Shown one piece after another: positions 10,958 to 40,700 of a DNA stretch of 64,000 nucleotides. The position numbers and the translations under genes were made by a program. The stretch is from positions 68,343,436 to 68,407,435 of the forward strand of contig CM059564.1 of assembly GCA_030386875.1 (NCBI GenBank). Reading direction: 5' to 3'. Source of the DNA: Morinoia aosen (Eukaryota > Arthropoda > Malacostraca > Amphipoda > Talitridae). The notes under the pieces are model-generated. The model saw only the letters and a list, made by a program, of their open reading frames with translations, had not been told where the DNA came from and did no database searches. Numbering within the stretch: position 1 is the stretch's first letter; every line of letters starts with the position of its first letter.

Positions 10958-12847
10958 TGTTAGGATTTGGTGATGGGGTTGAACTCATACAGTTATTAAC
11001 GTCCAATCCTAATCTTTCTTTTTGCTCGATAGTGCTTTTCGAAATCGTAAGAGAAGGTTAATAAAGCATGGGAACTCAGCTCAGAATTTATTAGAGGAAC
11101 GCCAGGAGGACTGGCGATGAGCTTGACTGGAAGAGCTTGTCTAGGTGGGCACTCCGTGCCGGCGGGGTCCTGCGCACGATGGTGAGGCCCGGTGAGCGAT
11201 GACGTTGGCAAAGTGTAAGTGATGTGTTTTTGGGGATTTGCAGTGTATAAGTTTTTAGCTACTGACAAACCGGCAAGTGGATGCAGTTTAGAGAAAACAA
11301 CCGTCTCAGAAATGTCTCACGTCAAACATCGGCAATTATGTTGTATGACTCGATGCATGAGTTAGTGGTGAGATTTGCCAAGTTAATATGCGACTTGTGT
11401 AGTTCAGATGAATGTATAGGTCAGGTTAAGATTAAGACCCAAGGAAGTGTTGTGGCGTTTTGGTGTGCCGTCGAGGAATCTGCAATAATCGAGGTCGCTG
11501 AATGAAAGGCTCTCGAAGAGGCATCAAGGAAAAATTCCACACTGACATTCCCTACACTGCAGATAAATTTTCCCAACACGGAGAAACACTGAGTCTTCCT
11601 ACAGATTCAACACGAGCTATTTGAATTTATTATCTTTTTGTCAAGCTCCTGAGATAGGATAGATTATAGCACTAGCAAGCTTTTTCCTAATGCCTTTGCT
11701 TTAGTACCAGCATGAGATTTACAAGACTTCCGGTAATGACAATCGTTATTCATTACCGAAACTACATGCAATTAAGTACAAGATCTACGGAATAATATGA
11801 CGTATCCACTCAGCTAGAAACTTTTTCAAGAATCTGCAGGACAGTACCAGCCTTGTGATTTTTAAAACAGTAATATTCGGTGATTCCTTTTTGTGGAATT
11901 ATGGAAAATACATGTGACTTAAAACACATGATTCGTGGAGTAGAAAGGAAATATATAAATAGCTAAAATGCATAGAATGGAAATAATACTTTTCTCGTAC
12001 TCTCAATACCTAGGTTTACACGGGAAAAATAAAAAAGGCAGTCCTAAATTCATTTACACGTCAAACACACTGAAGACGGGCACTGCAAGTATATGTTGTA
12101 AAAAATGGAGAGTTATTCCACATAAATATAGTGTAATTTAAATCACAGAGTAATGACATGAGACAGCAGTTTGTGCTACGCCATTTTGGAAAACAAAGGC
12201 GCCGGACTCTGCCGTGCGCGTTCACGATGTATTTTATGCACGAGTTTCGATATCATGAATGGCAGCTGCAAGTATATATTTTTTCCGCCAGAATAAAAAA
12301 GGAACATGATTTAAATGTTGATAATGAAATCTTGACACCGAAATGCGATGAACATCCGACGCAATATTTACGCTACGTTACAACGAATTACGAACGAAAC
12401 GAACGAACTACGTTACGAATGTTATATACGAACTCTACGACTATTTGCATGTTATCTATAAATCACGACTGACACGACCACTTATTCTTAGCACAATGGA
12501 CACTAAAAATTATACTTAATCTGAACACGAAAAGGAACACGATATTTTGTAAAACAGATTCTACTTACGAGAACTGCTGTAGCACCCAACTAGAGAGGGA
12601 ACGCACAAGTGAGAGTAAGTTTGAAAGAGACGCTTCACTGCGCAGTGTTGCCATACGGGGGCTTCTCTCTCGGGAAGTGTCGAGTGTTATTTTATATGTA
12701 ATGCATTTACACAAAAACTTCAGAGATTACTAATTATAAGTAGAAAATTGCTAATAATAATTTAGAGTAAGATTTTTAATGCTAATAGTTATGCTACTTA
12801 AGTGCGAATGAAAATTTATAATTTTACGCTTTGTAGCTGATGCTACA
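10958..12847 (-). repeat. Gypsy B 3' LTR (1890 bp)
   Basis: In element orientation it starts TGTAGCATCAGCTACA, a short perfect palindrome, and ends in TCCTAACA. It is unusually long for a Gypsy LTR. Small open frames (74-104 codons on either strand) occur at the same places in both copies but show no recognised domain. Confidence 0.93.
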
Positions 12848-12862
12848 TTACCCCCCAAGGCG
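12848..12862 (-). promoter_or_regulatory. Gypsy B polypurine tract
   Basis: On the minus strand, CCTTGGGGGGTAA immediately precedes the 3' LTR. Confidence 0.65.
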
Positions 12863-17699: not shown

Positions 17700-19591
17700 T
17701 GTTAGGATTTGGTGATGGGGTTAAACTCATACAGTTATTAACGTCCAATCCTAATCTTTCTTTTTGCTCGATAGTGCTTTTCGAAATCGTAAGAGAAGGT
17801 TAATAAAGCATGGGAACTCAGCTCAGAATTTATTAGAGGAACGCCAGGAGGACTGGCGATGAGCTTGACTGGAAGAGCTTGTCTAGGTGGGCACTCCGTG
17901 CCGGCGGGGTCCTGCGCACGATGGTGAGGCCCGGTGAGCGATGACGTTGGCAAAGTGTAAGTGATGTGTTTTTGGGGAGTTGCAGTGTATAAGTTTTTAG
18001 CTACTGACAAACCGGCAAGTGGATGCAGTTTAGAGAAAACAACCGTCTCAGAAATGTCTCACGTCAAACATCGGCAATTATGTTGTATGACTCGATGCAT
18101 GAGTTAGTGGTGAGATTTGCCAAGTTAATATGCGACTTGTGTAGTTCAGATGAATGTATAGGTCAGGTTGAGATTAAAACCCAAGGAAGTGTTGTGGCGT
18201 TTTGGTGTGCCGTCGAGGAATCTGCAATAATCGAGGTCGCTGAATGAAAGGCTCTCGAAGAGGCATCAAGGAAAAATTCCACACTGACATTCCCTACACT
18301 GCAGATAAATTTTCCCAACACGGAGAAACACTGAGTCTTCCTACAGATTCAACACGAGCTATTTGAATTTATTCTCTTTTTGTCAAGCTCCTGAGATAGG
18401 ATAGATTATAGCACTAGCAAGCTTTTTCCTAATGCCTTTGCTTTAGTATCAGCATGAGATTTACAAGACTTCCGGTAATGACAATCGTTATTCATTACCG
18501 AAACTAAATGCAATTAAGTACAAGATCTACGGAATAATATGACGTATCCACTCAGCTAGAAACTTTTTCAAGAATCTGCAGGACAGTACCAGCCTTGTGA
18601 TTTTTAAAACAGTAATATTCGGTGATTCCTTTTTGTGGAATTATGGAAAATACATGTGATTTAAAACACATGATTCGTGGAGTAGAAAGGAAATATATAA
18701 ATAGCTAAAATGCATAGAATGGAAATAATACTTTTCTCGTACTCTCAATACCTAGGTTTACACGGGAAAAATAAAAAAGGCAGTCCTAAATTCATTTACA
18801 CGTCAAACACACTGAAGACGGGCTCTGCAAGTATATGTTGTAAAAAAATGGAGAGTTATTCCACATAAATATAGTGCAATTTAAATCACAGAGTAATGAC
18901 ATGAGACAGCAGTTTGTGCTACGCCATTTTGGAAAACAAAGGCGCCGGACTCTGCCGTGCGCGTTCACGATGTATTTTATGCACGAGTTTCGATATCATG
19001 AATGGCAGCTGCAAGTATATATATCTTTTCCGCCAGAATAAAAAAGAAACATGATTTAAATGTTGATAATGAAATCTTGACACCGAAATGCGATGAACAT
19101 CCGACGCAATATTTACGCTACGTTACAACGAATTACGAACGAAACGAACGAACTACGTTACGAATGTTATATACGAACTCTACGACTATTTGCATGTTAT
19201 CTATAAATTACGACTGACACGATCAATTATACTTAGCACAATGGACACTAAAAATTATACTTAACCTGAACACGAAAAGGAACACGATATTTTCTAAAAC
19301 AGATTCTACTTACGAGAACTGCTGTAGCACCCAACTAGAGAGAGAACGCACAAGTGAGAGTAAGTTTGAAAAAGACGCTTCACTGCGCAGTGTTGCCATA
19401 CGGGGCTTCTCTCTCGGGAAGTGCCGAGTGTCATTTTATATGTAATGCATTTACACAAAAACTTCAGAGATTACTAATAATAAGTAGAAAATTACTAATA
19501 ATAATTTAGAGTAAGATTTTTAATGCTAATAGTTATGCTATTTAAGTGCGAATGAAAATTTATAATTTTACGCTTTGTAGCTGATGCTACA
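17700..19591 (-). repeat. Gypsy B 5' LTR (1892 bp)
   Basis: The partner of 10958-12847. Differences are scattered substitutions plus a few 1-2 bp indels (for example tatatatttttt against tatatatatctttt near 19020). Confidence 0.93.
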
Positions 19592-20024
19592 TGAAGTTTG
19601 CTACATTAATTTTAGATTTAATATTCAGATATTAAGTTTTACTTATAAGTTAAATGTTAACTTAATTATAGTCCTTAATTTTAAGTTCATGAGGAAACAA
19701 GCTTAAATTTAATTAACTTTTAGCGATTACAGGATAGCCTGTAAGTTCTCTGTACAATAACTCTCATTTTGTGGATGTTTAGCCAGCCAATCTTTTACCC
19801 ACTATCTAGAGGCGGTGTTTCTTCTTTATGACCGCAAAGCCGATGAGTATGCTTACTTTGACTACGACGAACCTCTCCCGACATTGCATAGTGAAGCACT
19901 GCCAAGCTTGCCAGTGACGCGCCACTTCAGTCACGAAAACGTACGTGTGAACGCAAGTGCTTTGACCACAGTCCCCGAGTGTGAGTGTGACTAACGGAAA
20001 ACTGATCGTGTGAAAGCCCCTTAA
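19592..20024. other. AT-rich spacer ending in a MITE terminus
   Basis: 19592-19800 is AT-rich with no gene. At about 19960-20020 the sequence ends in gatcgtgtgaaagcccc followed by TTAA (20021-20024). This matches in reverse the block at 921-970 and looks like the terminus of a DNA transposon with a TTAA target. The opposite end was not found. It sits against the decayed gag fragment that follows. Confidence 0.4.
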
Positions 20025-20475: not shown

Positions 20476-20564
20476 TGTCATATTAAGATTGAAATATCAA
20501 AACTTCGTTGTGTATCCTGTCTACCGGCGTTTAGGATAGATGTACGAAGCAATCTGTATTTTCA
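20476..20564 (+). repeat. Gypsy C 5' LTR (89 bp)
   Basis: Starts tgtcatattaag and ends tattttca. It differs from the 3' copy at two positions: C against G at 20517, and the final C against T. Confidence 0.85.
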
Positions 20565-20575
20565 ATGTTAAAGTT

Positions 20576-20648
20576 GATTTTTAGTTGATTAAAACCTGCC
20601 TTAAGGTTTTTGCTTTTTATTTCACGACAATTTAATCAACTAAAAATC
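20576..20648 (+). promoter_or_regulatory. Long hairpin in the Gypsy C leader
   Basis: An 18-bp perfect inverted repeat (gatttttagttgattaaa at 20576-20593, its complement at 20631-20648) encloses a second small stem, aaaacc/ggtttt. It lies where a tRNA primer-binding site would be expected, and no TGG-starting site follows the LTR. It ends 8 bases before the gag ATG. Confidence 0.75.
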
Positions 20649-20656
20649 TTGTCTGA

Positions 20657-23600
20657 ATGGAGCGGATCTTTAGCCCAGAGAAACTAAACGCTGATCCAAA
20701 TTCACCGGCGGCCGAGAAGACGTTTCGACATTGGAAACGAACGTTTGAGAACTTCCTAGAAGATGGCGGAGAGAGAGCACCAGATAAACTTCGCTGCCTA
20801 ACCCGATATGTATCGGCCGAAATGTATGATTATATTGCTGATGAGTCCACGTATGATGGAGCTATTGCGGTACTGGAGAAGTTGTACGTAAAAAAGAAGA
20901 ATATTATCTTCGCTAGGCATCTTCTTGCTACACGCCGACAAGAGGCGTCTGAATCCTTGGATGAATTCTTTCAAGAATTGCACAGATTGAGCAAGAACTG
21001 TAAATTAACGCCTGTATCAGCAGAAGAATACCGACTGGAACTCGTTCGTGATGCCTTTATCAATGGACTCTCATCATCTATCATACGCTAACGTCTTCTG
21101 GAAAACTCTACTCTGACTCTCACCGAAGCGTATGAAACGGCCAAAGCACTCGATCTTGCACAGCGCAATTCGGAATCGTATCGGTCAGCGGATTAGTTTC
21201 CTGCAGCCATGAAAGCTAACGCTTGCAACCAGTCATCTGTTACGGAAAGTATGATGACTACTTCGCGGAAGGAGACTGAGGACAACGCAGTGATTTCTGC
21301 GGTTGCAAAGAAACAGTGCTGGTTCTGTGGTGGGGCTATTCATCCTCGCAACAAGTGTCCATCAAGAAATTCCAATTGTTCATTATGCAGTAAAGTGGGC
21401 CACTGGGCAAAGGTTTGCCACTCCAGGACTACTAGAGACGTCGTGGCCTCTATCGTTTCTCCCACCAAATGCTCGACTACCGCCGCAGCCCCGTAAGGCC
21501 TGTAACCTTCTACGGTAACAGTGCTGCTAAAAGGGACATCACTCTCAGGGCTTGTTGATACTGCAAGCACGAATAGTTATATCAACGAGAAGGTTGCCCG
21601 TCGGCTACATCTATGTGTTGAGCCAGTACATCAGGAGATTACCCTTGCATCATCATCTTCGACAGCTGTTGTGACGGGATTGTGCTCTGTCAATCTGAAA
21701 CTAAACAACCGTGAGTACCCCCACACTAGTCTTGGGGTGGTAAAAGATCTTTGTAGCGATATTCTGCTTGGCATTGATTTTTAGAGCCAACATTCATCAG
21801 TCTCAATAACATATGGCGGGGAAAAGCCGTAACTCAGAATTCACAATCATGGTTCATGTTGTTTAATGGCTGCTAGTGTGTCAGAGCCTCTCCTATTTGC
21901 GAATATGAAGGAAGGAGTAAAGCCGGTAGCAACCAAGTCTAGGGACTTTGGCCGAGCAGATCGCGAATTCATCGCTCAAGAGATTCGTCATCTCCTTTCT
22001 GAAGGTATCATTGAGCCGAGCACGCCAGCCTGGAGAGCGCAGGTGGTCATTGCAAAAGATGAAACCAATCGTCATAAGAAAAGGTTGTGCATTGATTATT
22101 CAGCCACGGTCAATAGATACACTGATCTGGATGCCTATCCTCTCCCTAAAATTTAAAACATGATGAACGAATTGGCAAAGTACAAAGTTTTCTCAACATT
22201 TGACCTCAAGAGTGCTTATCACTAGGTCCCTATCCGTGATTCTGATAAGCCATTTACTGCGTTTGAGGCAAATGGAAGATTGTACTAGTTCAAGAGAGTT
22301 CCGTTCGGGGTTACGAATGGAGTAGCCGTATTTCAAAGAGCTATTGATGAATTTGTTGAGGAAGAGCACCTAAATGGGGCATTTCCGTACCTTGACAACA
22401 TTACTATTGCTGGACGCTCTTAAGAGGAACACGATAAGAATCTTGCGAGGTTTATGGCTGCTGCCAAGCGGAGGAAGTTGACATTTAATTCATCAAAAAC
22501 GGTGACATCTGCAAGATCTATTAACTTACTCGGTTATAGACTGGAAAACGGTTTGATCAAACCAGATCCGGACAGACTAGAACCTCTGTAACAGCTCCCG
22601 CCACCCACTAGTTTTGCTGCTATTCAGAGAACACTTGGCATGTTTGCTTACTATGCAAAATGGATTCCTGGATTCTCCGACAAGGCTCGAGCTTTGTACC
22701 AGGCTAAAACATTCCCTTTGAGTTAGGAGGCCATCACCGCATTCGAAACTTTGAAGAGGCTTCTTGGGACAGCGGCACTAAGCGGCATCGACGATTCGCT
22801 TCCTTTTGTTGTGGAATGTGATGCTTCTGACGTTGCCGTATCGGCAACTTTGAACCAAGGGGGACGTCCGATCGCTTTTCTATCCAGAACGCTGAATGCG
22901 AGTGAAAAGCACTACCCGGCTGTCGAAAAGGAGGCGACTGCCATTATCGAAGCTGTGAGGAAGTGGACTCACATATTATCTGGTCACCATTTCACTATAA
23001 TTACTGATCAGAGGTCGGTAGCATTTACGCTGGATAACCGAAAAAGGACAAAGATCAAGAATGATAAAATACAAGGATGGAGACTAGAACTCGCTAATTT
23101 CAGTTACTCCATCCGATATCGACCAGGCAAAAAGAACGTTGCCCCCGATGCTTTTACTCGTGCCTTCTGTGCATCAACGTCCGGTTCCAATCGCCTTGTG
23201 GAAATTCATAACGGTCTCTGTCATCCGGGAATTACTAGGATGCTACACTTCGTGAGAAGCAGGAACTTACCATTTTCAACTGATGATGTCAAGAACGTGT
23301 GTTCTTCTTGTCAAATCTGCGCAGAAGTCAAACCGAATTTTTATAAGCCACGATCGGACAATGTTCTTATAAAAGCAACACATGCAATGGAGAGATTAAG
23401 TATTGATTTTAAGGGCCCAATTCCATCGCGTACCGGGAACAAATACTTATTTACAGCCATTGATGAATTTTCCCGATTCCCTTTCGCAATCCCTTGTTGA
23501 AATATGACATCTCAAACTGTTGTGAGGTGTCTAGACACCATATTTTCTTTGTGCGGAACGCCAAACTTTGTGCATTCTGATCGTGGGCAAGCATTTTTAT

Positions 23601-24253
23601 CTCGTGAAGTCCGAGAATACCTCATCAATCGAGGAGTTGCAACTAGTAAGACAACTCCATATCATCCAACCGGGAATAGCTAAATTGAAAGATATAATGG
23701 CATCATTTGGAAATGTATTCAATTGGCCATGAAGACTCATGGCGTAGATCAACAAGAATGGGAATCAGTTCTACCGCAAGCTCTCCATTTGATACGCTCT
23801 TTATTATCTACGTCTACCAATACTACGCCACATGAACGATTTTTCAATTTCCCAAGACGATCTTGTCAAAGTACATCACTCCCATCCTGGCTTATGACCC
23901 CAGGTCATGTACTACTGCGCCGTTTCGGTCGGACTCACAAAGAAGAGCCATTGGTGGACGAAGTTGAACTTGTATAGGCGAATCCCGCGTATGCCCACAT
24001 CAAGTATCCGAACGGTCGTGAAAACACTGTATCCCTGAAAGACTTAGTGCCCTGTTCCTAATAGCCAAATCGCCAAAGTGAGGCACCTAACTTCTCGCCC
24101 GTTGAGACAACCGAAGTGGACAAGGAAGCCCCGCAATTGGTTGTTGTGGAGGACCAGCCGAGTATGAAAAATTCTGACCATACCGAAAGTAGCACCCCGG
24201 TTTTGCGACGCTCCACTCGAGAGAGACGAGAGCCTCAACGTTATGGGTGGTGA
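20657..24253 (+). CDS. Gypsy C gag-pol, one frame with 16 TAR and 1 TGA codons
   Basis: 1198 codons in one frame from the ATG to a terminal TGA at 24251. Order: capsid-like gag (residues 1-180), two CCHC knuckles (CWFCGGAIHPRNKC, CSLCSKVGHWAKVC; about 217-255), protease (LVDTASTNSYI), RT (CIDYSATVNRYTDLDAYPLP; YLDNITIAG), RNase H (VVECDASDVAVSATLNQGG; ITDQRS), integrase HHCC, then the D, D and E of DDE (SIDFKGP, HSDRGQAF, IERYNG). The end is STRERREPQRYGW. TAA: 21089, 21494, 21503, 21830, 22154, 22421, 22589, 23681, 24059. TAG: 21194, 21782, 22223, 22286, 22724, 23975, 24062. TGA: 23498. Under the standard code it is a pseudogene. Under UAR=Gln only the TGA remains. Confidence 0.85.
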
Positions 24254-24291: not shown

Positions 24292-24380
24292 TGTCATATT
24301 AAGATTGAAATATCAAAACTTCGTTGTGTATCGTGTCTACCGGCGTTTAGGATAGATGTACGAAGCAATCTGTATTTTTA
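24292..24380 (+). repeat. Gypsy C 3' LTR (89 bp)
   Basis: Matches the 5' LTR over 87 of 89 positions. It ends TA instead of CA, and three further bases (tta) lie before the AGGAT duplicate. Confidence 0.85.
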
Positions 24381-25693: not shown

Positions 25694-26228
25694 AACGCTT
25701 CATTAAAATTCTTTCAGAAAAAACAGAAATTGTACAATTTTTCAGCCACTGCGGATCGTCACCGGAATTAGAGGAAAAAAATCTTGTTGTTCACTGTTGC
25801 TCACAATAGGTTCGGTTTCTGTTTCTGTTCCGAGCGGTGTGCACGTGTTTCTGGGTCCTCCGACGAATATTGTGGTGAATTAAAGTGAAGTTGCTAAAAA
25901 CTGGTATAGTTTGTATATTCACGTGAGTAAAGTGTGTGACTTTGTATGGAGTGCTCGTGAGAGTAGTTTTTTTGTTGCGTGAGAGTTGAGACTGAGCATT
26001 GGACTTTGGTGTGGTGACTTGCAATTTTTGACTGAGGTGTTTTGACTGGTAGTTAAGCTTTCTTTGCATATAAAGAGTATAGTGTTTGACATTGTAGAGA
26101 GTGACTGTGAGTAGTAGGAAACGTTTTTGTTTTTTTTTTTTTTGATAACTTGATTTTCAGTAGATTTGGTGAGTGAAGACTCCTTCTGCCTGTGAAATTT
26201 GTACTGAGATAGAAGTCTGTGTCTGAGG

Positions 26229-27428
26229 ATGGCAAGAAATAGGACTGGTCGTAGGAAGGGAGGTGCAAGTGGAATGGATGAGGAGATTGAGTGCATGACT
26301 TGTAAAGAGTGGGTAGATATAGATGCATGCAAAGGTTTGAGAGAGATGAGTCGGAGGAAGTTGAATGATCTTGTGTTTACGTGCTGGAAATGTTTGAATG
26401 ACAAGAGAAAGAAGTTGGAAGAGGAGGTTGAGAGATTGACAATTCTGATGGTTGCTTTAGAGGCTGATTTGAAGGATGAAAGGAAGTTGAATGAAGGAAA
26501 GAATGAGAATGGTGCAAATGCAGTGAATGAAGAGGTAAATGGTGGTGGTGCAAGGAGTACAAATGAAGTGGATGATGGTGCAAGGAGTGCAAATGAAGTG
26601 GATGATGGTGCAAGGAGTGCAAATGAAGTGGATGATGGTGCAAGGAGTGTGAATGCAATAAATGAAGTGAATGGTGGTGCAAATGTGCCAGATGAGAGTA
26701 GAAGGATGAATGAGCATGATGAAAGAAGTACGAATGGGAAGAGAGTGAAGGAGCAACCTGTTGATATGCCACATGAGGTGCAGGCGCCTGTAGTGGAAGT
26801 GAATGTAAGGAAGATGGATGGAAAGAGTGATGTGAGTGGAAGAGTTGAACGAAAGAGTAGTATGAAAGGGAGAGTGAGACCTACGATTAGAATATGTGGT
26901 GACAGCATGGTGAAGAATGTGGATAGGTTTGTGAGTATGACTGACCGTAGTGGATGTACGAGCATGAGAGGAAAGGGAGTGAATGAGATTTGTAGGCATG
27001 CTGAGGAAGTGATAGATGGAATGGATGAAGGGATGGTTGTACTGCAAGGAGGTGGCAATGGATTGCTTGAATGTGGGAGAGAGCGTACGGTGAATGCAAT
27101 TATGAATGTTGTTGAAAGGGCGCGAAAGAAGAATGTAAGAGTGGCTGTGACCAGTCTGCTGAGAAGGCCTGCATGTGGTGAGGAGTATGAAAGGGTGCGA
27201 AAGGAGGTGAATAGGGAAGTGCATAAAAGGATCATGAGTATGAAAGCTGAGAGTATGAGAAAGCGTGAAATGGGTTCCAGCTTCCTTGATATGGATAACC
27301 TGATCCAGAGTGGGTGTTTTTGTGGAGATGGAGTCCACCTTACTCAAGAAGGTGAGATGAAACTCTCCAGGAGATACATCCGGTGGATTGGGTGTACTCA
27401 TATTGTAATGGAAGGTGGAACTGGATGA
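26229..27428 (+). CDS. LINE copy 2 ORF1: zinc finger plus SGNH esterase
   Basis: 399 residues. The N-terminus has a PHD-like Cys pattern (CMTCKEW near residue 19, CWKC near 55), then a coiled coil (EEEVERLTILMVALEADL). Residues about 106-140 are a tandem repeat with core ARSANEVDDG. The C-terminal half is an SGNH/GDSL hydrolase-like domain: ICGDSMVKN (block I Ser), GGGNG (block III Gly/Asn), GDGVHLT (block V Asp/His), so the catalytic triad is present. ORF1 proteins of this type bind element RNA, and some have lipid-esterase activity. The stop TGA is immediately followed by the ORF2 ATG in the same frame. Confidence 0.9.
   Translation: MARNRTGRRKGGASGMDEEIECMTCKEWVDIDACKGLREMSRRKLNDLVFTCWKCLNDKRKKLEEEVERLTILMVALEADLKDERKLNEGKNENGANAVNEEVNGGGARSTNEVDDGARSANEVDDGARSANEVDDGARSVNAINEVNGGANVPDESRRMNEHDERSTNGKRVKEQPVDMPHEVQAPVVEVNVRKMDGKSDVSGRVERKSSMKGRVRPTIRICGDSMVKNVDRFVSMTDRSGCTSMRGKGVNEICRHAEEVIDGMDEGMVVLQGGGNGLLECGRERTVNAIMNVVERARKKNVRVAVTSLLRRPACGEEYERVRKEVNREVHKRIMSMKAESMRKREMGSSFLDMDNLIQSGCFCGDGVHLTQEGEMKLSRRYIRWIGCTHIVMEGGTG
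26546..26665 (+). repeat. 30-bp coding minisatellite within ORF1
   Basis: About 3.5 copies of a 30-bp unit (gtgcaaatgaagtggatgat core) preserve the frame and encode the acidic ARSANEVDDG repeat. Confidence 0.85.
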
Positions 27429-30400
27429 ATGGAAAGCTGTCAGAGCAAAAATGAAAAATGTTGTGAATTGTCCAATAGTGTTGTAAGGTTTGGATGTATA
27501 AATGTGCGTGGATGGAATGCAGGAAAGTTAAATGACCTTGTAGCAGAATTTGAGAATGGAGATTTGGATTGTGTTGGTGTAGTAGAGACCCAAATGCGTG
27601 ATAGAGTCAGTTTAAAGTGTAAGGAGAGTAAGTACTACATGATTGGAAAAGGGCGTGTAAGTTGGCAAAAAAGAGGTGGTGGAGTTGGTCTCATTGTAAA
27701 AAATGCTCTAAATTGGAAATTAGAAGAAATTCCTGTTGGAAATGAACCTGAGAGTGAAGATCTGTTAGTAATAAAGTGTGAAAGAATGCATGCCAGAGAA
27801 TGTGTTATTGTGGTTGTATGCTATATGACAACTGATGGTATTTTAGCTCATCAAGAGAATGTAAAAAAGTATGAAATATTAACAAGAATTGTGCAAGAGC
27901 ATTGCAGATGCCCTCTGATTTTGATGGGTGATATGAATGGCCATGTTGGTATACTTGGTGAGCCTGTGAATGCAAATGGACAAAAATTGATTGATTTCTG
28001 TGATGAGAATGAACTTGAGAACCTAAATGTAACAATAGGAAATGGCTTGCATACATGGCAAAGCAGGGAATGTAAAACTGCAATTGACTATATGATAGTG
28101 AATAGTAGAGCAAGAGAGTGTGTCAAAGAAATGTTTGTAGATGAAGATGATTTTGATATTGATAGTGACCATAAAATGCTTGTACTAGAATATAATTGGG
28201 GTGGAAAGGAGCCGATGCAGAAGGCCAGCAGAGTAAGAGAAAATTGGCGTATTAAAATGGCAAACTGGGAAGAATTTAGAAATGAATTGAGTAGATGTAA
28301 CTGGAACAGGTGTGGAAATGTAAATGACCTAAATAAGGAGATTGCAAGAACCTTGTATGATGTGGCAGAGCAAAAGATCGGTAGAATGAAATGCAGGAAA
28401 AGTACAGGGAATGCTAGGTGGTTTACGAGTGAGATAAAGGAAGAACGAACGAGAAGGAAGACTTTAAATAAAAAACAACGCAGTATGAGGAAAATGTATG
28501 AAAGACGCAGAATTACTGAGGATGAATGGCAGAGTGTATGGAATGAGTACAAGGACCAGCAGAAGAAAGTAAAGAGAATGATCAATGAGGCTAGGGTTAA
28601 AGAAGAGAGACACCAAGTTGAAAATCTAAGAAAGAAAGGTCTAGATGGAATAAAAGATTGGTATAGGTTTATACAAGGTAATGATAGAGGTAGTGAAGTT
28701 CAAGTTGATGAATTAGTAGTCAATGGTTGCAGTGTGCAAGATAGGATGCAAATGGTGAAAGCAGTTGAAGAATACTGGGAGGACATTGGTGGAATGAATG
28801 AGCAGGTTACAGATGATGAACCAATAAATTTTCTGATAGATGAACATGAACTGCAAATGGAAGACGAAATCACTTGTGAAGAGATTGTAAGTTTTTTGAA
28901 GAAAGTGAAAAATGGAAAGGCATGTGGCCCTGATAAGATACCATATGAGTTCTATAAATGTGGAGGAGAGAGTGTAGTCAGTATGTTGAAATGTTTATTT
29001 GATGAGATATGGAAGAGTGAAAGAGTACCGGATGACTGGAACAAGTGTAATGTAGTTCTGTTGCATAAGGGTGGACATAAGAGTATGAAAGAACTTAAAA
29101 ATTACAGACCAATTGCACTGGGTGACACCGTATGTAAGATCTTTTGTGGTATTTTGAATGAGAGAATGAAAAATTTAGTTGAGGAATTAGGAGTCCTGGG
29201 AGAAGAACAGAATGGTTTTAGGCAAGATAGACGGGGGGAGGATAATCTGTTTGTAGTGAGTGAAATAATTGAGCGAATGAAGAAGGATAACAAGAAGGTA
29301 TATTTAGCATTCCTGGATATTGAAAAGGCGTATGACAGAGTGGATCGGGTTAGGCTGTTTGAAATTTTGAGAAAAGTTGGTTTTAGCAGAAAAATAGTGA
29401 ACATTGTACAGAGTCTGTATGAGAACACAAGTGCTATCTACAGGTTAGGAAATTTGGAAGCAGGGCAAGTGAGGAGTGTTAGAGGAGTGAGACAGGGCTG
29501 TACTCTGTCCCCCCTGTTGTTTGGATTGTACACAGAAGAATTAGCAGTTCGACTGAGAGGGAGTGGTTTAGGACTGAAAGTTGGTAATGAGAGACTGAGC
29601 TGTTTGTTGTATGCTGATGATGTGGTTGTGGTTAGTGAATGTGGTCATGAACTACAAAGGATGCTTGACATTGTGAATGGATATAGTACAGATTTCAAGA
29701 TGATCTTTGGTGCCGATAAAAGTAAGGTCATGGTTATAAATAGTGATGAGACTGATAGAGACAGACTGTGGAATATTGGAGAAATCAGAATAGGTAGAAC
29801 AAAAGAATACAAATATCTAGGTTGTATGATGAGTGAAGATGGATGTACTAGAACTAAAGGTGAGAAAGTGGCTAAAGCAATGCAGTGGAGTGGACGGTTA
29901 GGTAGTGTGGCCAGATACAGAGCAAACAAGTACGAATGTGTGAGAGGAATGTGGAAGTATGTTGCTGTACCTAGTGTCATGTATGGTATGAGTGCTCTTG
30001 CCTGGAATGGAAGTGATCTTGAAAAGCTGGATGTGATACAAAATAAGGTAGGACGTGTAGCATTGGGTGCTCCGAAATGGACAGCTACAGAAGCCATTAG
30101 AGGTGACCTAGGGTGGAGCCTATTTTCAGAAAGAATGATGAAAGCTGTGCTGAATTATAAGGTGAGAATTGAAAGAATGCAGAATAGCAGGTGGGTAAGG
30201 CGAATCTTTGAATGGAATCTGAGTGTAAGCTATTGGGAGAAAGTATGTTGGGGGCATGCAAGGAAACTCAGTATGCAAAAGATTATTCATGTTAGAATTG
30301 GGAGACCTGTGGATGACTGGAGTTTAATAAATGTAGGAGGTGTAGGGTCTGAGTGGGACTGCAAGAGGTGGAAGAAAGAGATTGAGAGACGAACAAAAGA

Positions 30401-37715: not shown

Positions 37716-40700
37716 AAGGAAATGGCTTGCATACATGGCAAAGCAGGGAATGGAAAACTGCAATTGACTATATGATTGTGAATAGTAGAGCAAGAGAGTG
37801 TGTCAATGAAATGTTTGTAGATGAAGATGATTTTGATATTGATAGTGACCATAAAATGCTTGTGCTTGAATATAACTGGGGTAGAAAGGAGTCAATGCAA
37901 AAGGTCAGTAGTGTGAAAGAAAGTTGGCAGATAAAAAAGGTAAACTGGGAAGAATTTAAGAATGAATTGAGTAGGTATAACTGGAACAGGTGTGGAAATG
38001 TAAATGACCTAAATGGTGAGATTGCAAGAACCTTGTATGATGTGGCAGAGCAAAAGATTAGTAGAATAAAATGTAAGAAAGGGACAGGGAATGCCAGGTA
38101 GTTTACAAGTGAGATAAAGGAAGAACGAATGAGAAGAAAGACTTTAAATAAGAAACAACGCAGTATGAGGAAAATGTATGAAAGAAACAGAATTACTGAG
38201 GATGAATGGCAGAGTGCATGGAATGAGTACAAGGACCAGCAGAAGAAAGTAAGGAGAATGATTAATGAGGCTAGAGTTAAAGAGGAGAGACACCAAGTTG
38301 AAAATCTAAGAAAGAAAGGTCCGGATGGAATAAAAGATTGGTATAAGTTTATACAAGGTAATGATAGAAGTAGTGAAGTTCAAGTTGATGAATTAGTAGT
38401 TAATGGTTGCAGTGTGCAAGATAGGATGCAACTGGTGAAAGCAGTTGAAGAATACTGGGAGGACATTGGTGGAATGAATGAGCAGGTTACAGATAATGCA
38501 CCCATAAATTTTCTGATTGATGAACGTGAACTGCAAATGGAAGACAAAATCACTTGTGAAGAGATTGTAAGTTTTTTGAAGAAAGTGAAAAATGGAAAGG
38601 CATGTGGCCCTGATAAGATCCCATATGAGTTCTATAAATTTGGAGGAGAGAATGTGGTCAGTATGTTGAAATGTTTATTTGATGAGATATGGAAGAGTGA
38701 AAGAGTACCGGATGACTGGAACAAGTGTAATGTAGTTCTGTTGCATAAGGGTGGACATAAGAGTATGAAAGAACTTAAAAATTACAGACCAATTGCACTG
38801 GGTGACACTGTATGTAAGATATTTTGTGGTATTTTGAATGAGAGAATGAAAAATTTAGTTGAGGAATTAGGAGTCCTAGGTGAAGAACAGAATGGTTTTA
38901 GGCAGGATAGACGTGGGGAAGATAATCTGTTTGTAGTGAGTGAAATAATTGAGCGAATGAGGAAGGATGATAAGAAGGTGTATTTAGCATTCCTGGATAT
39001 TGAAAAAGCGTATGACAGAGTGGATCGGGTTAGGCTCTTTGAAGTTCTGAGAAAAGTTGGGTTTAGCAGAAAAATAGTAAAAATTGTACAAAGTCTGTAT
39101 GAGAACACAAGCGCTATATACAGGTTAGGAAATTTGGAAACGGGGCAAGTGAGGAGTGTTAGAGGAGTGAGACAGGGCTGTATTCTGTCTCCCCTGTTGT
39201 TTGGATTGTACACAGAAGAATTAGCAGTTCGACTGAGAAGGAGTGGCTTAGGACTGAAAGTTGGTAATGAGAGACTGAGCTGTTTGTTGTATGCTGATGA
39301 TGTGGTTGTGGTTAGTGGATGTGGACATGAACTGCAAAGGATGCTTGACATTGTGAACGGATATAGTACAGATTTCAAGATGAACTTTGGTGCCGACAAA
39401 AGCAAGGTTATGGTTATAAAAAGTGATGAGACTGATAGAGACAGACTGTGGAATATTGGAGAAATCAGAATAGGTAGAACAAAAGAATACAAATATCTAG
39501 GTTGTATGATAAGTGAAGATAGATGCACTAGAACTAAGGGTGAGAAAGTGGCAAAAGCTATGCAGTGGAGTGGACGATTAAGTAGCGTGGCCAGATACAG
39601 AGCAAACAAGTATGAATGTGTGAGAGGAATGTGGAAGTATGTTGCTGTACCTAGTGTCATGTATGGTATGAGTGCTCTTGCCTGGAATGGAAGTGATCTT
39701 GAAAAGCTGGATGTAATACAAAATAAGGTAGGACGGTTAGCATTGGGTGCTTTAAAATGGACAGCTACAGAAGCCATTAGAGGTGACCTTGGGTGGAGCC
39801 TATTTTCAGAAAGAATGATGAAGGCAGTGCTGAATTATAAGGTGAGAATTGAAAGAATGCAGAATAGCAGATGGGTAAAGCGAATTTTTGAATGGAATCT
39901 GAGTGTAAGCTATTGGGAGAAAGTGTGTTGGGGGCATGCAAGGAAGCTTAGTATGCAAAAGATTATTCATGTTAGAATTGGGAGACCTGTGGATGACTGG
40001 AGTTTAATAAATCCTGGAGGTGTAGGGCCTGAGTGGGACTGCAAGAGGTGGAAGAAAGAGATTGAGAGGAAAACAAAAGAGTATGGATTGAATAAGTGGA
40101 GGCTTAGCATGGTGCGGAAGCCTACACTTGACTGGTATATGAAAAAAGAAGCACCTAAGTTTGAGATGTTCTATGATGGTAGTTTTGGAAGTCAACTCTT
40201 GTTTGCTGTGAGATGTAAGTCATTGAGTGTGAACAGACGTACATGGAGGTGGAATGAGAATAATAACAGATTATGTCGGCAGTGTATTAGTGGAGTGGAG
40301 GAAACAATTGAGCATTTTGTGCTGGAATGTAGTAAGTATGAGCAAGAGAGAGAAAGTTTTATGAATGTGGTGCTTGAGCAGTATGGAGAGAATGAGTGGT
40401 ATGCCAGATGTGCTGAAGATGATTGCGGTATGAGCTGTCTTGCTGGATTGGATCAGGAGTGCAATTTGAGTATCATTGAAGCTATGAAATTGTTTCTTGT
40501 GCGTGCCTGGAGTAAGAGACAGTGACTGGAATGAGCCAGTCAGGTAGAATGGTCAGTAATGACCCAATATGCCTGGGGATGGTGTTTTGACGCACTGGCT
40601 ATCCCAGTGACGCCATCCAATGGCAGCTTGTGACGAGGATTGGTAAATCCTGAGTAGTTTAGTGGACAAGTCTGGTACCAGGCGCTGAACTCTTTGTGTG

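Follow-up and report, generated by a model that had tools for sequence, protein, structure and literature searches.

A retrotransposon family of the amphipod Morinoia aosen that probably reads UAA and UAG as glutamine

We analyzed a 64,000-nucleotide stretch of DNA from the amphipod Morinoia aosen (hereafter the window; C9:68343436-68407435 in a 1.99-Gb assembly of 29 contigs), which carries a long terminal repeat (LTR) retrotransposon whose gag-pol frame is interrupted by many in-frame TAA and TAG codons (together TAR; CAR denotes CAA and CAG, and UAR the RNA form of TAR). Comparisons of DNA and predicted protein sequences make it probable that the family to which this element belongs replicated by decoding UAA and UAG as glutamine (Gln), with UGA as its own stop, in an animal whose ordinary genes terminate with UAA, and that the reading was done by natural suppressor tRNAs. 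We also lean, with less assurance, toward the broader view that UAA and UAG have a dual meaning in the germ line of this animal: termination for its own genes and Gln, by way of dedicated suppressor tRNAs, for a dependent retrotransposon family.

The gag-pol region is a single continuous frame of 1198 codons plus the terminal TGA:

20657..24253, + strand: gag-pol frame, with 16 TAA/TAG codons, one internal TGA and a terminal TGA

A recount agreed with the first-pass annotation of this DNA, which had described one 1198-codon frame with no frameshift, 16 TAA/TAG codons and one TGA; the stops are nine TAA, seven TAG and the TGA at 23498. The same annotation had estimated that about 28 CAA/CAG codons were left and that roughly a third of the putative Gln codons were TAR, and indeed 28 were counted, giving a TAR share of 16 of 44 (36%). 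Over the same interval, the remaining five frames contain 48 to 82 stops apiece. Open pieces of the frame match the Pfam families RT_RNaseH, Integrase_H2C2, and rve, and a gag match in these pieces stays under the Pfam cut-off. It had also been offered as evidence that all 17 stops can arise from CAA, CAG or CGA by one C-to-T change. Because this is true of any stop codon, an outside test was needed, for which we used homologous proteins.

The homolog query, the pol piece with X at each stop, yielded 1478 proteins with E <= 1e-3 among 7985 scored candidates; the Pfam domain RT_1 (PF00078) was present in many of the 1478. All column counts reported here use the best 120 of these 1478 and refer to homologs with a residue at the column. 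Identity within this set reaches 72% over the aligned part, and its named members are from animals (Xenia, Palaemon, Oratosquilla, Caligus, Clavelina, Mytilus). The mean Gln fraction in the homologs was 0.377 at the 14 TAR columns of pol and 0.343 at the 19 CAR columns, compared to 0.023 at the 824 others; none of 20000 random column sets matched the TAR mean, the largest reaching 0.2125. The log-odds sum at the TAR columns favored Gln (+26.0), with glutamate as the runner-up (-3.1). Of the 432 columns that are at least 80% conserved, 10 are Gln columns, and stops of the element occupy four of these and none of the 422 non-Gln columns. As a set, although not at each column, the TAR codons fall on Gln columns of the homologs; at columns 21494, 21503, 22724, and 23975 the homolog residues are mixed. 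Three of the homologs (P0092, P0113, and P0114) are 5'-truncated and begin right after TAR columns.

The same columns were followed through the family using the best 40 of 63 copies from a DNA search with the reverse transcriptase (RT) part (95 to 100% identity), that is, the window copy and 39 others. Three of these (L040, L041, and L042) lie at one insertion site and were later treated as single. The columns that bear most directly on the question are as follows.

21089..21091, + strand: TAA at a conserved gag Gln column (Gln in 84/88 homologs); TAA in 30/30 readable copies including the window
21782..21784, + strand: TAG at a Gln column (Gln in 86/105 homologs), CAG in some copies; TAG in 30 and CAG in 6 of 36 copies
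22154..22156, + strand: TAA at an aspartate/glutamate column (aspartate in 77 and glutamate in 21 of 116 homologs); TAA in 36, TAC in 3 and CAA in 1 of 40 copies
22223..22225, + strand: TAG at an invariant RT Gln column (Gln in 118/118 homologs); TAG in 38/40 copies
22286..22288, + strand: TAG at an RT Gln column (Gln in 75, glutamate in 35 and histidine in 6 of 116 homologs); TAG in 39 and TAA in 1 of 40 copies
22334..22336, + strand: CAA in the window, TAA in 11 mostly more divergent copies (Gln in 116/116 homologs); CAA in 29 and TAA in 11 of 40 copies
22421..22423, + strand: TAA at an RT Gln column (Gln in 94/120 homologs); TAA in 36, TAG in 2 and other codons in 2 of 40 copies
22589..22591, + strand: TAA where Gln is the commonest residue (Gln in 53, arginine in 26, leucine in 14, lysine in 11 and others, of 120 homologs); TAA in 38, TAC in 1 and TGA in 1 of 40 copies
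22724..22726, + strand: TAG in the window, TAA in 11 copies (homolog column variable); TAG in 29 and TAA in 11 of 40 copies
23498..23500, + strand: internal TGA, in the window copy alone; TAA in 31/33 fully readable other copies, with one more gapped there
23681..23683, + strand: TAA at a conserved integrase Gln column (Gln in 104/105 homologs); TAA in 32/32 readable copies

Five positions that had been placed at Gln sites from family knowledge, 22223, 23681, 21089, 22421, and 22286, were thus borne out by the homologs. The internal TGA at 23498, which had been taken as either an inactivating change or a codon that is read through, is a TAA-to-TGA change private to the window copy.

Across genome copies, the tabulation of TAR against CAR that had been proposed as a check found the TARs to be common to the family, being present at nearly all readable positions of the 39 other copies, and to be exchanged with CAR at several columns. 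The element frame ends in UGA, the terminal TGA being retained in 20 of the 22 other copies that are readable there. Copies swap TAR for CAR, or TAA for TAG, at 22334 (TAA/CAA), 22724 (TAG/TAA), 22421 (TAA/TAG), 21782 (TAG/CAG), and 23009 (CAG/TAG), exchanges that would be silent only if UAR means Gln. Two of these sites, 22421 and 23009, switch in one pair of sister copies. On the copy tree, 22334 and 22724 (11 copies each) need three changes apiece, and the CAG at 21782, found in four insertions, needs four separate changes, so that this site either mutates again and again or is poorly resolved on the tree. Two remoter copies (92 to 93%) retain the majority of the TARs. At 21194 the two read CAG; one further differs in having TAC at 22154 and 22223 and its partner in having TAT at 22286, and each bears additional stops of its own.

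Selection on the frame was assessed by classifying variants among 37 copies in the region after the first TAR, with Gln columns excluded. Private variants comprised 262 synonymous changes, 634 nonsynonymous changes and 47 stops; those common to two to four copies comprised 66, 91, and 5, respectively; and those common to at least five copies comprised 34, 19, and 0 (Fisher p = 4e-7). The shift was seen in both regions taken separately, with synonymous to nonsynonymous counts of 14 to 5 (at least five copies) versus 110 to 269 (private) in RT/RNase H, and of 12 to 1 versus 68 to 170 in integrase. Given a mutational opportunity of 2.4 to 3.2 nonsynonymous changes per synonymous change, these counts imply a ratio of nonsynonymous to synonymous rates (dN/dS) near 0.2 for the shared variants; dN/dS had also been suggested as a check on recoding, and was taken here with the Gln columns left out. 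Constraint is apparent among the shared variants, whereas the private ones look near neutral. Because this constraint lies downstream of the first TAR, the frame was under protein-level selection while it carried stops.

The host does not share this code. A host-wide UAR = Gln code is rejected on the evidence of one histone gene, an eRF1-like exon, and a control family. The histone H4 gene (L112), which was reached by a search with profile PF15511 (CENP-T_C), terminates GGA GGT TAA, indicating that the host still terminates at UAA. An eRF1-like host exon holds the canonical motif TASNIKS, which we take to be that of eRF1; the search row at this exon shows one TAA within the match, which may sit beyond the exon edge. 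In a control gypsy family, represented by a second element in the same window, 33 of 66 copies are stop-free and the others have one to three stops. Since half of these copies are stop-free, in-frame TARs are not general in this genome. An apparent excess of TAG in the control family proved to be largely one column at the start of the query, where TAG stands in all 8 fetched of the 66 copies, against ACG in the window; four other stops in those eight copies are private, at a glutamate, a lysine, and two Gln codons. Of twelve further long frames in the window, three end in TAA, three in TAG, and six in TGA. Flanking the control element are two stretches of ~1.9 kb (10958-12848 and 17700-19592), ~6.7 kb apart and 97-99% identical, which are probably its long LTRs.

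Other release factor-like loci were also seen. Candidates for eRF1 on C12 were set aside, as they read like what we take to be Pelota paralogs instead; the region C12:25.57-26.56 Mb (L096, L097, and L098) holds two pairs of Pelota-like copies ~0.94 Mb apart. An intronless frame at C16:35503600-35505000 (L099), presumably eRF1-like, has the motifs KSSNIKS, GGQ, and YDCGKSF and is possibly a release-factor paralog or retrocopy.

Candidate suppressor tRNAs were found elsewhere in the genome; the window carries no tRNA gene. Two tRNA genes on C19 (L113 and L114, at 39308153 and 39321047) are complete, have the anticodon CUA according to ARAGORN, and score 70.8 bits in Rfam, in the range of host tRNA-Gln (69.3 bits) and host tRNA-Lys (72.8 bits). 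They are identical at 72/72 bases, whereas the flanking sequences agree at 37 and 31 of 64 positions. Such identity amid diverged flanks is as expected under selection, although gene conversion could also produce it. When six host tRNAs were compared, the body of the two genes was nearest tRNA-Gln (55/72 for both Gln types), followed by tRNA-Lys (49), tRNA-Trp (47), tRNA-His (46), and tRNA-Arg (42); the CUA anticodon leads ARAGORN to label them Pyl. A short pattern for Lys-derived suppressors gave 62 matches versus 76 for the reversed control, so most pattern matches are chance. The 12 of these 62 places that were fetched comprised one normal tRNA-Lys, nine without a tRNA by ARAGORN, and the two C19 genes. 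A tRNA pattern hit on C16, L050, proved not to be a tRNA. At 37 listed tRNA-Gln-like places, the anticodon was CTG in 23, TTG in 13 (one a fragment), and TTA in one. The one with TTA, a candidate UUA tRNA at C23:18361475, is derived from tRNA-Gln and has a 7-pair acceptor stem altered on both sides relative to normal tRNA-Gln. The search for suppressor tRNAs that had been recommended therefore succeeded for UAG, with two sound CUA genes, but for UAA gave just this weak candidate. A large array of tRNA-Gln genes, with UUG and CUG types intermixed, lies at C25:34.2-36.5 Mb.

Taken together, these features would fit a scheme in which natural suppressor tRNAs read the UAR codons of the element as Gln. 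The C19 CUA tRNAs, charged with Gln, would read UAG in the germ line, and a UUA tRNA, either that from C23 or one not found, would read UAA. Since it ends in UGA, the element could drift freely from CAR toward TAR, and with suppressor tRNAs making such changes nearly silent, TAR could have accumulated to ~36% of its Gln codons. Among the explanations that had been listed at the outset, UAR read as Gln through a natural suppressor tRNA is the best fit.

Several observations weigh against this scheme. The reading of UAA is its weak point, as CUA normally pairs with UAG alone, yet 9 of the 16 TARs are UAA. A convincing UAA reader was not found, the C23 gene being the only UUA gene met in a study that made no genome-wide tRNA survey. 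That gene has an anticodon-stem mismatch, an extra base, and a best fold that is not a cloverleaf; it scores 30.9 bits in Rfam (gathering threshold 29) compared to 69.3 for normal tRNA-Gln, and may be a pseudogene. Given the canonical TASNIKS exon, suppression has to compete with termination. Furthermore, Gln is not the main homolog residue at six or more of the TAR columns: 23498 is mostly proline, 21194, 21830, 24059, and 24062 are variable, and 22154 is mostly aspartate or glutamate, which argues against a strict Gln origin at that site. Finally, the variants common to two to four copies include five stops at non-Gln codons, and the four that were examined are TARs at tyrosine or lysine codons (22181, 22682, 23051, and 23132).

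An alternative is that the family is a dead lineage mobilized in trans, whose founder gained the stops and was then copied by the proteins of an intact relative, with no need for the stops to be read. In its favor, non-autonomous LTR elements are common, and the TAR copies are many and dispersed. However, protein-level constraint on the widely shared variants downstream of the stops, with near-neutral private variants, is not what would be seen in a lineage wholly dependent on copying in trans; moreover, the stops at conserved columns are confined to Gln columns, and the TAR/CAR exchanges behave as silent. We also searched the genome with an intact homolog, P0002. Among the 38 scored (47 rows) of 23491 first-look candidates, every one contained TARs and no stop-free helper relative was found. 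The two stop-free rows, fragments 77 and 50 residues long, adjoin TAR-bearing rows, and 21 of the 47 rows have at least one TGA. The best match, on C14, has a 1198-codon frame with 17 TAR and no TGA. We consider mobilization in trans unlikely.

Suppression within this animal is also to be preferred to horizontal transfer from an organism in which UAR means Gln, such as a ciliate, with the element as a passenger. The decoding of the element is that of the ciliate nuclear code (table 6), and related elements are widespread. Against this, the listed relatives are stop-free predicted proteins, a class that a standard-code database favors, the named ones are animal, and the nearest relative on the tree is P0092. 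A scan of viral_contigs with six peptide patterns, whose reach is close relatives only, found no relative. The TAR/CAR exchange and the selection among copies in this genome imply that UAR decoding went on once the element had arrived, and we judge transfer of this kind to be very improbable.

Little credence can be given to U-to-C RNA editing that restores CAR in the translated mRNA. Such editing would likewise act on UAR codons, but once edited RNA was reverse transcribed the TARs would be lost, unless genomic RNA escaped the editing, and we know of no U-to-C editing in animal nuclear mRNA. Least credible is that the founder DNA underwent C-to-T hypermutation or editing, another of the options first raised. 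Such a process would account for each TAR at a CAR-derived site as a C-to-T change, but it fits badly and is rejected on the conserved columns, since departures reachable by C-to-T number just 5 at the 422 non-Gln columns versus TAR at 4/10 Gln columns, while CpG observed/expected is 0.96 in the element versus 0.65 in the window and the TARs run through the history of the family rather than marking a single burst.

To our knowledge, no nuclear stop-codon reassignment is known in animals, nor has a recoded transposable element been described in one. If UAR is indeed read as Gln here, this family would be the first such element known to us in an animal, and possibly an initial stage of a codon reassignment that a mobile element drives. 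In a host with standard stops, a selfish element that profits from suppressor tRNAs, or keeps them in place, would open the ambiguous-code step of reassignment to direct test, and gene finders that assume the standard code would overlook live elements of this type. Among the titles and abstract openings listed in literature searches on recoded retrotransposons, no retrotransposon recoded in an animal appeared.

The nearest parallels are from other systems. Phages of standard-code bacteria that read TAG as Gln (code 15) with suppressor tRNAs (PMC9523058, PMC10879173) resemble the present case as mobile elements that use a stop as Gln within a host of the usual code; here, by contrast, the element is a eukaryotic retrotransposon, both UAA and UAG are involved, and the window holds no tRNA gene. 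In Amoebophrya sp. ex Karlodinium, the in-frame UAR codons are likely Gln, stops also terminate, and suppressor tRNAs are present in the assembly (PMC12005148), but about half of the predicted gene models are affected, rather than one retrotransposon family. Ciliates without a dedicated stop codon (PMC4967479) share with the window element stop codons that carry two meanings; there, however, it is the whole nuclear code of a protist rather than a single mobile element. The LTR elements of Uromyces and Cronartium with tRNA-like LTRs, some predicted to be CTA suppressor tRNAs (PMC10886601), are a different phenomenon.

The element itself is, from its predicted RNase H and integrase, its close homologs, its LTRs, and its target duplications, all of which fit, a mag-like Ty3/gypsy LTR retrotransposon, "mag" being the lineage name that we take to apply. 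As in the mag lineage, RT, RNase H, and integrase lie in one frame with gag and the LTRs are short; in contrast to it, the window family has ~17 shared in-frame TAA/TAG codons and the listed homologs, which are standard-code predictions, have none. The terminal features are:

20476..20629, + strand: 5' LTR, 154 bp, TGTC...GACA, with bounds taken from complete copies
24292..24379, + strand: truncated 3' LTR, about 89 bp
20576..20593, + strand: inverted-repeat arm GATTTTTAGTTGATTAAA, 18 nt, within the LTR, from sequence and fold
20631..20648, + strand: complementary arm directly after the LTR, at the expected primer-binding site, from sequence and fold

The LTR pair had been compared over 89 sites, and the window 3' LTR does stop after about that length, but the full LTR is 154 bp. 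In copy L039 the two LTRs, each of 154 bp, are identical, and the 5-bp duplication is GGGAG. Target duplications of 5 bp were present in six of the seven copies in which both LTRs were found (four independent insertions, three copies being one duplicated insertion); the copy without one was L044. The 18-nt inverted repeat (20576-20593 / 20631-20648) is perfect and spans the LTR and the expected tRNA primer site, which suggests that reverse transcription may be self-primed.

Two further arrangements were observed. At C23:15449023 and C22:24432324 (L004, L006, and L007), LTRs of the family occur as inverted pairs whose starts are separated by 180 bp, with partial element sequence adjoining. Within the window, GC skew reaches 0.50 to 0.57 at 26001-30000 and 38001-40000, over two related non-LTR elements that have a coding strand rich in G and poor in C.

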